Below are positions 6,056 to 33,693 of a stretch of 64,000 nucleotides of DNA, piece by piece (within the stretch, counting starts at the first letter, position 1; each line of letters begins with the position of its first letter). The position numbers and the translations under genes are program-made. The notes under the pieces are model-generated. The model searched no databases. It worked only from the letters and a program-made list of their open reading frames with translations, and was not told the DNA's origin. The DNA is from Curtobacterium sp. MCBD17_013 (GTDB taxonomy: Bacteria; Actinomycetota; Actinomycetes; Actinomycetales; Microbacteriaceae), in the NCBI RefSeq assembly GCF_003234565.1, contig NZ_QKTU01000004.1:186001-250000 (forward strand), read 5' to 3'.

Positions 6056-6091
6056 CGGGAGGCACGGTGCGGGCTTGCACCGTGCCTCCCG
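6056..6091 (-). terminator. Terminator after the phosphoesterase gene
   Basis: The perfect 15-bp arms at 6056-6070 and 6077-6091 enclose a 6-nt loop. It is 41 bp past the phosphoesterase stop and upstream of the epimerase ribosome-binding site. Confidence 0.78.
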
Positions 6092-10616: not shown

Positions 10617-11807
10617 ATGGACGCCGCCGACCTCGCACAGCTGCTCACGCCCGAGGGCATGGCGCTCCTCGATCGCGTCCCAGGTCTCGCGGAGGGCGAC
10701 GACGTCGTCCGTGCCGTGTCGCGCCTCCGCGCCGAGGGCCACGATCCCCGGCTCGTCGCGACGGTCCTGACGCAGGCGCGACTCCGTCAGCGGGCCCGCT
10801 CGAAGTTCGGCGACTTCGCGGGCCGGATGCTGTTCACCGAGGCCGGTCTCGAGCAGGCGACGCGCCTCCGCGTCGCGGCACAGCACGCCGGCCGGTTCGC
10901 CGCCGCCGGGATCACACGCGTCGCCGACCTCGGGTGCGGCATCGGCGGGGACGCGCTCGCGCTCGCGGCGCTCGACCTGGAGGTCGTCGCCGTCGACCGC
11001 GACGAGGTCACCGCCGCGATCGCCACGCACAACCTGGCACCGTGGCCCGCGGCCCGGGTCGAGCTCGGGGACGCGGCCCGCTTCGACGTCGGCCGGGTCG
11101 ACGGCGTGTGGCTCGATCCGGCACGGCGCACCGCGGGACACAGCGACACACGACGGCTGGAGGACCCGGACGACTGGTCCCCGTCGCTCGACACGGTGTT
11201 CGCCGCGGCGACGCAGCTGCCCACCGGGGTCAAGCTCGGGCCGGGCGTCGACCGCGACCTCGTCCCCGACACGGCCGAGGCACAGTGGACGAGCGTCGAC
11301 CGCGAGGTCGTCGAACTCGCGCTGTGGTTCGGTCCCCTCGCACGGCCGAACGTCCAGCGGGCCGCGACCGTCATCGGGGTGCACGGTGTCGCCGAGCTCA
11401 CGGGACCGGCCGACGCCGAGGACGTCGAGGTCGGCCCGCTGGGCGAGTACCTCGTCGAGCCGGACGGCGCGGTCATCCGAGCTCGGCTCATCGGAGATCT
11501 CGGGCGGCGACTCGGCGGCCGGATGCTCTCGTCGGGCATCGCCTACCTGAGCACGGACGCCCCCGTCGACACCCCGTTCGCGCAGGTGTTCCGCGTCCGC
11601 GACGTCCTGCCCCTCGACCCGAAGCGGATCGGGGCTCGGCTCGCCGCGGACGGCGTCGGCCGGGTGGAGATCAAGAAGCGCGGTGTCGACGTGGACCCCG
11701 CGCAGTTCCGTCGGCGGTTGCGCCTCCAGGGCGGGTCCGGGCAGGCGACGCTCGTCCTCACCCGCCTGGAGGGACGGCACGCGGCCGTCCTGTGCGATCG
11801 CCCCTGA
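10617..11807 (+). CDS. Class I SAM-dependent methyltransferase with THUMP-like C-terminal domain
   Basis: A 396-residue protein. The SAM-binding motif I is VADLGCGIGGDALALA (about residues 102-117), followed by an acidic VAVDRDE at the end of the second strand. A VWLDPARR motif lies near 165, in the position of the catalytic NPPY/DPP loop. The C-terminal third matches the THUMP-like domain seen in actinobacterial methyltransferases of this kind, with KKRGVDVDPAQFRRRL. The substrate is probably RNA, but that is inferred. The GGGAGGA ribosome-binding site lies 7 nt before the ATG. It is divergent from efeOB and convergent with the DUF4190 gene. Confidence 0.85.
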   Translation: MDAADLAQLLTPEGMALLDRVPGLAEGDDVVRAVSRLRAEGHDPRLVATVLTQARLRQRARSKFGDFAGRMLFTEAGLEQATRLRVAAQHAGRFAAAGITRVADLGCGIGGDALALAALDLEVVAVDRDEVTAAIATHNLAPWPAARVELGDAARFDVGRVDGVWLDPARRTAGHSDTRRLEDPDDWSPSLDTVFAAATQLPTGVKLGPGVDRDLVPDTAEAQWTSVDREVVELALWFGPLARPNVQRAATVIGVHGVAELTGPADAEDVEVGPLGEYLVEPDGAVIRARLIGDLGRRLGGRMLSSGIAYLSTDAPVDTPFAQVFRVRDVLPLDPKRIGARLAADGVGRVEIKKRGVDVDPAQFRRRLRLQGGSGQATLVLTRLEGRHAAVLCDRP

Positions 11808-11832
11808 CGCCGGTCCTGCCCGGCCCCATCCG

Positions 11833-11892
11833 CCGAGATCGCACAACACGCCGCTCACCTTCGAAGGTGAGCGGCGTGTTGTGCGATCTCGG
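11833..11892. repeat. 60-bp perfect palindrome (bidirectional terminator or REP-like element)
   Basis: The two 30-bp arms (11833-11862 and 11863-11892) are exact reverse complements with no spacer; I checked every base pair. It lies in the 124-bp gap between two convergent genes, where a bidirectional terminator would be expected. No T-tract is present on either strand. Its length and perfection exceed what a terminator needs. Confidence 0.9.
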
Positions 11893-11931
11893 TGAGGACC
11901 GCCGTCGGCGGGCGGGCGGGACGGCCCGGGA

Positions 11932-12471
11932 TCAGGTGTTCGGGTAGTTCGAGTAGTCGCCGTTGTGCGACGCGACGAACGCGAAGAAGATGACGATGAA
12001 CACGATGTAGGCGACCCACAGCGCCGTGATCACGTAGCCCACGATGAGCCCCGTGAGCGCGAGCGGGCGCCCCTGCTCCCCCGTGCGCTTGATCTGGTGC
12101 AGGCTGATGTGCCCGAACACCACCCCGAGGGGCGCCACCACGAAGCCGAACACGATGGCGAGGATCGAGAACAGGTTCCAGCTCGACGACGCCTGCGGGT
12201 ACCCCGACCCGGGCTGCCCGTAGGGATTGGGCTGGCCGTACTGCGGCTGGCCGTACGGCTGCTGCCCGTAGGGATTGGGCTGGCCGTACTGCGCCTGCCC
12301 GTACGGCTGCTGCCCGTGCTGACCCTGCTGTCCGTACGGCGACTGCTGCCCGTGCTGCGGCTGTCCGAACTGCGGCTGTCCGTACCCGTGGTGTCCGGAC
12401 GGTGTCTGTCCGGACGGCGCCTGGCCGGACGGCGTCTGTCCGTACTGCGGCTGGTCGTTCTGGTCGGACAC
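11932..12471 (-). CDS. DUF4190 membrane protein with Gln/Pro/Tyr/Gly-rich N-terminus
   Basis: A 179-residue protein in two parts. Residues 1 to about 100 are a low-complexity region built from GQPQYGQ and NPYGQ-like repeats. The C-terminal part has two membrane segments with the DUF4190 pattern: [20 protein letters not shown], then [10 protein letters not shown]. The start is GTG at 12471 with a GAGGAGGGG ribosome-binding site. Such proteins are common in actinobacteria and may be exposed to the cytoplasm or the wall; the function is unknown. The repeats are also visible in the DNA between about 12210 and 12440. Confidence 0.85.
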
Positions 12472-12614
12472 GTGTTCCCCTCCTCGTCGCCCACGGTGCG
12501 GGCGTCCCGCCGATCCTCCCACAGGGCGCGTGCGCACGACCGGCCGCCAGCACCCCCGGAGCGGGGGAGGCACGGCCAGCGGACGCGCGATGCCGCGCCG
12601 CCGCGGTCGTCAGG

Positions 12615-12784
12615 CCTGCACCGTCGTCCGACCTGCACCCCCGTCAGACCTGCACCCCCGTCAGACCTGTACCGTCGTCGGGCCTGCACCGTCGTCAGAC
12701 CTGCACGGTCGTCGGGCCTGCACCGTCGTCAGACCTGCACGGTCGTCGGGCCTGCACCGTCGTCAGACCTGCACGGTCGTCACG
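12615..12784. repeat. 17-bp tandem repeat (10 units) overlapping the tsaD stop codon
   Basis: Ten head-to-tail 17-bp units, starting at 12615, 12632, 12649, 12666, 12683, 12700, 12717, 12734, 12751 and 12768. The plus-strand consensus is CCTGCACCGTCGTCAGA. From 12683 on, two versions alternate, giving a 34-bp higher-order period. The last codons and the stop of tsaD (12763-12765) lie inside the array, as if the gene's 3' end had been amplified outward. Confidence 0.93.
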
Positions 12785-33653: not shown

Positions 33654-33693
33654 ACGGAGGGCCTCCGCAGCGATCGCTGCGGAGGCCCTCCGT
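33654..33693 (-). terminator. 40-bp perfect palindrome ending the alpha operon (rplQ)
   Basis: The 20-bp arms (33654-33673 and 33674-33693) are exact reverse complements with no spacer. It lies 20 bp past the rplQ stop and upstream of the AfsR-like promoter. No T-tract follows. It is the natural terminator of the long ribosomal transcript. Confidence 0.85.

Follow-up and report, generated by a model that had tools for sequence, protein, structure and literature searches.

A dispersed palindrome of nearly fixed length brackets a Vsr-type nuclease gene in Curtobacterium and other actinobacteria

Introduction

REPINs are a well-studied example of a tiny bacterial repeat that is kept alive by a low-copy enzyme, and the known cases, as far as the excerpts of the literature used here cover them, involve one enzyme family or none known. 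REPINs, as in Pseudomonas fluorescens SBW25, have inverted conserved ends at a fixed distance, compensatory changes in their interior and an extragenic dispersal (PMC3116915). The CGTC-tagged REPs, according to the excerpt of a second paper, occur in five phyla, Actinobacteria not among them (PMC3733652). The MTES_1575 domain, in turn, is listed in the excerpt of a third paper as part of a large multi-domain HEPN protein of Microbacterium testaceum (PMC3710099).

Here, we describe a palindromic repeat, termed family A, one copy of which forms a 60-bp palindrome in a 64-kb window (the whole stretch of DNA that was analysed, G000:C33:186001-250000) of the source genome G000, a 3.39-Mb draft. Family A resembles the REPIN/RAYT system in its inverted conserved ends, which stand at fixed spacing and are able to form one hairpin, in its co-varying variable interior and extragenic dispersal (3 of 43 copies lie in predicted frames), and in its clusters and a low-copy partner gene beside repeat copies. 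It fails, however, to share a defining feature of REPIN/RAYT, because the RAYT/Y1 tyrosine transposase (PF01797) was found in none of the 66 genus genomes, while the control search detected it in 5 of 14 reference genomes, E. coli among them. Specifically, the REPIN/RAYT partner is a Y1 transposase, whereas that of family A is a Vsr-family/DUF559-like nuclease in an actinobacterial host. Like the CGTC-tagged REPs as presented in the excerpt of PMC3733652, family A is a short palindromic extragenic repeat without an associated transposase gene, but it differs from them in the tag, as neither a GTAG nor a CGTC end tag occurs in 39 aligned copies. The nuclease partner has its C-terminal nuclease domain in common with the MTES_1575/Vsr-family REase proteins (PF18741), for which the excerpt of PMC3710099 mentions no link to palindromes. 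Finally, family A is like the actinobacterial bidirectional hairpin terminators in forming long GC-rich hairpins between convergent genes, and unlike them in its near-exact length, common outer termini, dispersed copies and nuclease bracketing. We found no description of this palindrome-nuclease pairing in the open-access papers searched, and the excerpts of PMC3733652, PMC3116915, PMC3710099 and PMC12907096 do not describe one.

Results

The palindrome was located by an inverted-repeat scan at positions 11833 to 11892 of the window (no strand). As the first-pass annotation of this DNA had stated, it is perfect and has no spacer: its two 30-nt arms (11833-11862 and 11863-11892) are 100% complementary with a gap of 0. 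It is the longest perfect inverted repeat in the 64-kb window when loops of 0-10 nt are allowed, and the runner-up among gapless palindromes (33654-33693, 20-nt arms) differs in sequence from family A. Simulating 64 kb 30 times with a second-order Markov model gave longest arms of 9-12 nt and never more than 12, so the palindrome is beyond chance. It begins 25 nt past the stop codon of a plus-strand gene for a methyltransferase with a THUMP-like domain (10617-11807; gene call and family match), whose best relatives are Curtobacterium proteins of at most 84% identity, and it lies 39 nt from the stop codon (11932) of a minus-strand gene for a DUF4190 protein (11932-12471; gene call and family match, with a longer start possible at 12573). 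The site is therefore flanked by a convergent gene pair, as had been noted.

In G295, a second and separately assembled genome of the species, the orthologous element lies at C1:319363-319417 in the same flanking context and has one base fewer near its centre. Because of this shorter copy, perfect symmetry is true of G000 only and the gapless centre is incidental; that the missing spacer, to which the first-pass annotation had drawn attention, is the notable property finds no support in a unit of about 55-56 nt with a drifting centre. Assembly folding had been named there as the circumstance that would undo the palindrome. In favour of such folding, a contig end of G000 (C9:1-145, L036 1-145), read by eye, mirrors itself around a family-A element and is likely an assembly fold-back, and the ends of contigs C2 and C6 also lie at such elements. 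The two flanks of the window palindrome differ, however, and the G295 assembly has the element in place between the same flanks, so that a fold-back artefact is refuted here and we give it practically no credence.

The annotation had furthermore pointed to SbcCD, which cleaves such structures, and to a check for its genes. SbcD is present in G000, over the curated cut-off, and beside it lies a 1421-aa frame with an SbcC match at both ends, under the family cut-off; the persistence of the palindrome is thus not explained by the absence of SbcCD. Among relatives examined at the palindrome site (52 loci), other palindromes occur in a part, ordinary hairpins in another, and a few or more are without any spacer, and perfect-ended family A is absent from the methyltransferase-gene loci of 80 relatives, some of which stop soon after the gene. 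A resemblance of the 3' end of the methyltransferase gene (TGTGCGATCG) to the palindrome arm was set aside, as this is coding sequence common to relatives without the element. Elsewhere in the window, the hairpin CGGGAGGCACGGTGCGGGCTTGCACCGTGCCTCCCG at 6056-6091 is akin to G295 hairpins (L236, L250) and to array repeats of G379 (L129), and is possibly another dispersed hairpin family. A short motif is repeated at about 12530-12760, in the interval that separates the DUF4190 gene from its upstream neighbour, taken to be tsaD, with repeated peptides in several frames.

A search for further copies, which had been advised on the idea of a REP-like family, did reveal such a family. In a DNA search, the palindrome matches 17 distinct places of G000, mostly on both strands and in one geometry (best 40 of 66 candidates). 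The element proper is a 56-nt unit, GAGATCGCA-N38-TGCGATCTC, which a gapped-pattern match places at 11835-11890 of the window (no strand; G000:C33:197835-197890). In aligned copies, the left terminus GAGATCGCA (11835-11843, plus strand) and the right terminus (11882-11890, minus strand), which has the same sequence on the opposite strand, are conserved. Compensatory variation marks out a variable 6-nt arm block, here CAACAC (11844-11849, plus strand), that is mirrored in the other arm, and comparison of copies identifies the hairpin centre (11857-11868, no strand) as a fast-changing part of the family, palindromic here and one base shorter in G295. The window palindrome is a family-A copy whose usually variable centre is palindromic too. 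With the pattern GAGATCGCA-N(24-54)-TGCGATCTC, which permits 31 gap lengths, 37 perfect-ended copies were found in G000 and 38 in G295, and a reversed control pattern gave 0 matches in both. The length of the copies is nearly fixed: 56 nt in 35 of 37 and 55 nt in two of 37 in G000, 56 nt in 34 of 38 and 55 nt in four of 38 in G295, and, in another species (G379), 55 nt in 57 and 56 nt in one among the 58 listed of 69 copies.

The arms of these copies vary together. In a covariation alignment of 39 copies (34 perfect-ended out of 37, plus 5 imperfect ones, leaving out the mirrored contig-end copy C9:46 and the two 55-nt copies), standard pairs fill 91.0% of the cells of a 27-pair stem vs 79.6% (sd 0.8) in column shuffles, a value that 0 of 500 shuffles reach, and the covariation score is 0.306 vs 0.125 (sd 0.010) after shuffling, with 0 of 500 as high. 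Neither the pairs with changes in both arms (13) nor the additional pair types (36) are in clear excess, as 72 and 75 of 500 shuffles, respectively, are as high. The outer nine positions are set by the search pattern and uninformative in 34 of the 39 rows. Positions 10-15 carry mirrored variant blocks (GTCGTT, GAAGAT, GAACAC, CAACAC and CTCGTT), and positions 16-21 are almost invariant except position 20, which is variable without covariation. Among 38 distinct copies of G379, an excess of pairing is seen at positions 15-17 only and none at 18-27; since this species shows no excess of inner pairing, yet nearly all its listed copies measure 55 nt, the length of family A is held where pairing is not.

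Family A is concentrated between convergent genes. Gene calls made with our own codon-usage script place 23 of 43 G000 copies (37 perfect-ended and 6 imperfect) between convergent genes, 12 between codirectional and 2 between divergent ones, with 3 unclassified and 3 inside predicted frames. Of the 37 classifiable copies, a different set from the 37 perfect-ended ones, 23 are thus convergent vs 31 of 170 background gaps (p=2.6e-7) and 2 divergent vs 43 of 170, the background being gaps of 60 nt or longer in an evenly spaced 400-kb sample of G295. Of 19 sites in G379, 12 lie between convergent genes and 7 between codirectional ones.

The outer arms are, furthermore, under constraint within the species. 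When the 30 of 37 elements for which an ortholog had been retrieved were compared between G000 and G295, counting gap-free 56-nt pairs, with flanks taken within 60 nt and coding sequence included, arm positions 1-21 had changed at 11 of 1092 sites vs 93 of 3373 in the flanks (p=4.7e-4); the central four bases had changed at 9 of 104, and inner stem positions 22-26 (8 of 260) had changed no less than the flanks. Without the mirrored contig-end copy, the counts are 9 of 1050 for the arms vs 88 of 3299 for the flanks (p=2.6e-4), 6 of 250 for positions 22-26 and 6 of 100 for the central four. To the extent that the outer arms change less than their flanks, the selection that the first-pass annotation had offered as one reason for the persistence of the palindrome gains support. 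Insertion polymorphism between G000 and G295 was found in neither of two candidate elements: both seemed specific to G295 and exist in G000, where one terminus carries 3 mismatches in one element and 1 in the other.

These features bring to mind a bidirectional intrinsic terminator or mRNA 3'-end protector, in which case the likeness of the copies would stem from the occasional copying of a good terminator. The hairpin in the window is strongly stable (z = -10.3), it lies between convergent genes, and its outer arms are constrained. Additionally, in the 400-kb sample of G295, long hairpins occupy 16 of 32 convergent gaps of 40-400 nt vs 8 of 93 between codirectional genes and 0 of 41 between divergent ones, and many of these hairpins have sequences unrelated to family A. 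Against this, 0 terminator-like sites with a U-tract were found in 11000-12700, several relatives are without a hairpin at the window site, and a terminator requires neither a nucleotide-exact length nor outer termini common to other genera. Nor does it account for a G379 family that keeps its length though positions 18-27 show no pairing excess, or for the two-sided bracketing of nuclease genes set out below. We consider this account rather unlikely; of the terminator proposed in the first-pass annotation, the convergent location and the stable hairpin stand, and no U-tract was found, so that it is partly compatible only. The readings are not mutually exclusive, and a bidirectional 3'-end function at the window site is compatible with a REPIN-like repeat, with which it need not conflict given that half of the convergent gaps sampled hold a long hairpin. 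Compared with Rfam at 8 loci with such palindromes, the palindromes gave sub-threshold matches only, mostly to miRNA models, and none over the gathering scores.

Perfect-ended family A occurs in 15 of the 66 genus genomes and is missing from 51. The copies number 69 in G379, 43 each in G441 and G448, 38 in G295, 37 in G000, 32 in G437, 27 each in G105 and G031, 22 in G451 and 21 in G442, and 2-6 each in G405, G354, G425, G445 and G424. Across Microbacteriaceae the pattern is present in 21 of 398 genomes and 7 of 85 genera with a length typical of each genome, and a few single matches in other genera may be chance. Specifically, the length is 46 nt in G004 (10 listed of 27) and 55 or 56 nt in G201 (10 listed of 29); every copy listed for G200 and G284 measures 59 nt, as do 4 of the 5 listed for G086. 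A further family, family B (GAAAGCGACAG..CTGTCGCTTTC), is found in 37 of the 66 genus genomes and absent from G000 and G295, and its listed copies measure 47 nt with a single exception; it lies beside no nuclease among the nuclease loci typed. Family B palindromes are present in loci L045, L055, L063, L064, L074, L075 and L078. BIME-like tandem arrays of palindromes or half-sites, with a period of about 70-200 nt, were seen in L129 (G379), L143 (G031), L149 (G214), L294 (G004) and L296 (G201).

Several other roles were considered and dropped. Carriage by phages was set aside, as the 23 viral contigs with the family-A pattern are near the roughly 22 estimated to be expected by chance and the match lengths are scattered over 42-71 nt, with 66 and 71 each occurring four times; among phages, one nuclease homolog was found, a weak one. 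In G295, C1:1362223-2631290, which makes up 37% of the chromosome and includes the expected terminus, holds 0 of the 38 perfect-ended copies, a pattern noticed post hoc that has a probability of 2e-8 under uniform placement. Both G295 and G379 begin at dnaA (read from the first protein and from the first bases, respectively), and G379 has many family-A copies at 1.3-2.4 Mb, so that avoidance of the terminus is not general and a reading as a chromosome-organising site was dropped. Readings as integron attC sites, uptake sequences or nucleoid-occlusion sites were dropped on copy number or anatomy.

A candidate partner emerged from pairs of elements that lie about 1 kb apart. Six such pairs were examined, three in G000 and one each in G087, G201 and G284, and in three of the six (G000 C36, G087 and G201) the same kind of gene, coding for a nuclease, lies between the elements. 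G087 and G201 belong to a genus other than Curtobacterium and carry the gene at a different locus; as they share this one locus, the bracketed nuclease is seen in two independent contexts. The spacing could at first be taken for chance: the other G000 pairs enclose a PhyH gene and a gene read as an aldo/keto reductase, and only the nuclease-bearing pair recurs. The bracketed protein matches PF18741 (MTES_1575 Vsr-type REase) with E down to 2.2e-7 in three proteins scanned, none of which reaches the curated cut-off of 38.2 bits, and among 25 homologs, at E<=0.01, PF18741 is matched by 16 (best E = 1.6e-8) and DUF559 by 8. D241, E252, Y253 and H258, which we take to be catalytic-like residues, are invariant in the 25 homologs. 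One of the three nuclease proteins, furthermore, matches an AbiEi model weakly (PADLOC, E=8.8e-7); AbiEi is a DNA-binding antitoxin that binds inverted repeats in its own promoter.

Homologs of the nuclease are widespread. A search with a profile built from the three proteins, in which the best 34 candidates per genome were scored and counts may therefore be low, found at least 1-5 homologs per genome in 66 of 66 genus genomes; several have an internal stop. The single homolog among the best 34 candidates of G000 is the bracketed gene; one element precedes its matched frame by 89 nt and the other overlaps its stop codon. Family A, in some cases with one or two terminal changes, flanks a nuclease gene on both sides in G000, G295, G448, G441, G379, G105, G451, G087 and G201 and on one side in G437 and G445, and seven of these genomes (G448, G441, G379, G105, G451, G437 and G445) lie outside those that prompted the nuclease idea. 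No family-A flank was found at any of the 3 homologs of G031 (27 copies) or at the one of 3 examined in G442 (21 copies), and G423 and G427 have family-A-like nuclease flanks, yet 0 perfect-ended family A. Genomes with an A-flanked nuclease have 3-69 copies vs 0 in 51 of the 57 others (Mann-Whitney p=1e-10, with the flanking copies counted in).

Palindromes also accompany other clades of this nuclease. At 70 homolog loci (30 from the profile search and 40 added), a hairpin with a score of at least 12 lies within 220 nt upstream in 24 cases vs 15 of 251 control genes of G295 (p=7.8e-9). Hairpins on both sides were found at 8 of 70 vs 2 of 251 (p=1.1e-4), and downstream hairpins, at 20 of 70 vs 46 of 251, are not significantly enriched (p=0.067). 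In a second control, 38 of 163 genes had a hairpin upstream, with few distinct genes counted repeatedly (orthologs, 41 loci), and a matched-neighbour control comprised a single case (n=1). Of twenty further loci, 9 had an upstream hairpin of score >=12 in a 260-nt window, 4 of these 9 with one downstream too. Several hairpin types were defined post hoc, on sequences already inspected, by their ends: GTGAGCAG in beta, GGTCACGA in gamma, GGTCGCA in delta and GCGGGCGAA in epsilon. The matches at nuclease loci are again uniform in length, with 51 nt in 27 of 27 for beta (48-60 allowed) and 47 nt in 10 of 10 for gamma (42-60 allowed). At the non-nuclease loci sampled, these four types were represented by one delta, one epsilon and two doubtful matches only.

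The type of palindrome appears from sequence comparison to track the nuclease clade in part. On a tree of 72 homologs, 28 of which have no typed palindrome, 16 type changes are needed vs a mean of 39.6 after shuffling (0 of 200 as low); beta changes 2 times, gamma 2, A 3 and epsilon 6 times, the last being no better than chance (104 of 500 shuffles). A comparison of neighbours at 18 loci revealed that the Curtobacterium nucleases of types A and gamma occupy a single common locus, where they stand in either of two orientations, and part of the agreement between clade and type may therefore be vertical co-inheritance. Co-inheritance leaves unexplained both the same family-A bracketing at another locus of another genus (G087, G201) and the fact that a genome's dispersed copies carry the termini found at its nuclease.

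A nuclease that controls its own gene through the palindrome would offer another account, in which the dispersed copies are regulatory or act as decoys and are selected, not mobile. Half-sites paired at a constant distance in front of the nuclease gene would suit an operator, as would the constrained outer arms and the weak AbiEi likeness of one of the three proteins. The copies lie, however, mainly at gene 3' ends and not at promoters (2 of 37 are divergent), they often stand 3' of the nuclease gene as well, and fully mirrored variants of the inner arms are unexpected for a simple operator, which makes such a scheme quite improbable.

The arrangement extends to a second actinobacterial family. 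A search with the G000 nuclease against plasmid records gave four matches, of which a partial Nonomuraea match was left out; the three Arthrobacter records taken (>80% query coverage, 28-32% identity) were chosen blind to their flanks. All three have palindromes on both sides, with upstream/downstream scores of 24/10, 20/18 and 10/15, and the termini are clearly matched in two of the three. Specifically, the palindromes of L414 start CGAGATGGCA and CGAGATGACA, near the CGAGATCGCA of family A, and those of L415 both start TTGAGGGCCC; in L416 the upstream palindrome is shorter and less clear, with a common GTCGCA seen by eye. On both large replicons of Arthrobacter sp. StoSoilB13, BLAST matches to the L414 and L416 types exceed what the flanking copies give, and the 250 kb read there contain two further sites of the L414 type, with all four copies of 55 nt, and one further site of the L416 type, with both copies of 52 nt. 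The L415 type has 4 BLAST matches on plasmid NZ_CP012477.1, the number that a flanking pair gives on two strands.

These data bear on the view that the copies are relics of an old repeat, spread once by an enzyme since lost, and that copies and nuclease neighbourhood alike are passively inherited. The absence of insertion polymorphism from both candidates compared between the two conspecific genomes would fit such a history, as would the single Curtobacterium locus of the A and gamma nucleases, and CGTC-type REPs without a transposase are on record in the excerpt of PMC3733652. The outer arms are better conserved than their flanks, however, and the same arrangement stands at another locus in another genus (G087, G201) and in Arthrobacter; we judge relics to be very improbable.

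Discussion

The observations describe a non-coding repeat that hardly varies in length, ends in two conserved inverted termini and is dispersed mainly at gene 3' ends, with a variable interior that is mostly self-complementary in the source species. Such dispersed palindromes bracket an MTES_1575-type (Vsr-family, PD-(D/E)XK-like) nuclease gene in two actinobacterial families, a combination that hints at a repeat system, selfish or regulatory, that has its own enzyme. The window palindrome probably belongs to a REPIN-like repeat that has a nuclease partner, and at this site it also occupies the position where a bidirectional 3'-end hairpin would be expected. The nuclease was not anticipated in the first-pass annotation.

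By analogy with REPINs, we infer that the nuclease may act on the palindrome and so spread it. In such a model, the nuclease would recognise the paired termini, perhaps through its N-terminal part (one protein being weakly AbiEi-like), and probably as folded or cruciform DNA. Nicking or cutting by the nuclease could then lead to copying of the palindrome into new sites and keep the copies alike. Copies would persist where a hairpin is harmless or useful, that is, between convergent genes, and might there serve both directions as well, by terminating transcripts or shielding mRNA 3' ends.

More broadly, and with confidence a shade below even, these repeats may represent a new kind of actinobacterial mobile palindromic DNA, in which fixed-length hairpins are copied by a Vsr/MTES_1575-type nuclease and not by an HUH tyrosine transposase. 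Each clade (A, beta, gamma, delta, epsilon and the Arthrobacter types) would have its own termini, and G379 would hold several such pairs.

If the nuclease link fails, there is still a large family of constrained 3'-end hairpins for which no description was found in the open-access literature. If it holds, the same anatomy would be served by an unrelated nuclease, which would mean that the arrangement arose more than once. It would furthermore give a handle on widespread, little-studied actinobacterial nucleases and turn seemingly ordinary terminator hairpins into a testable pair of protein and site.
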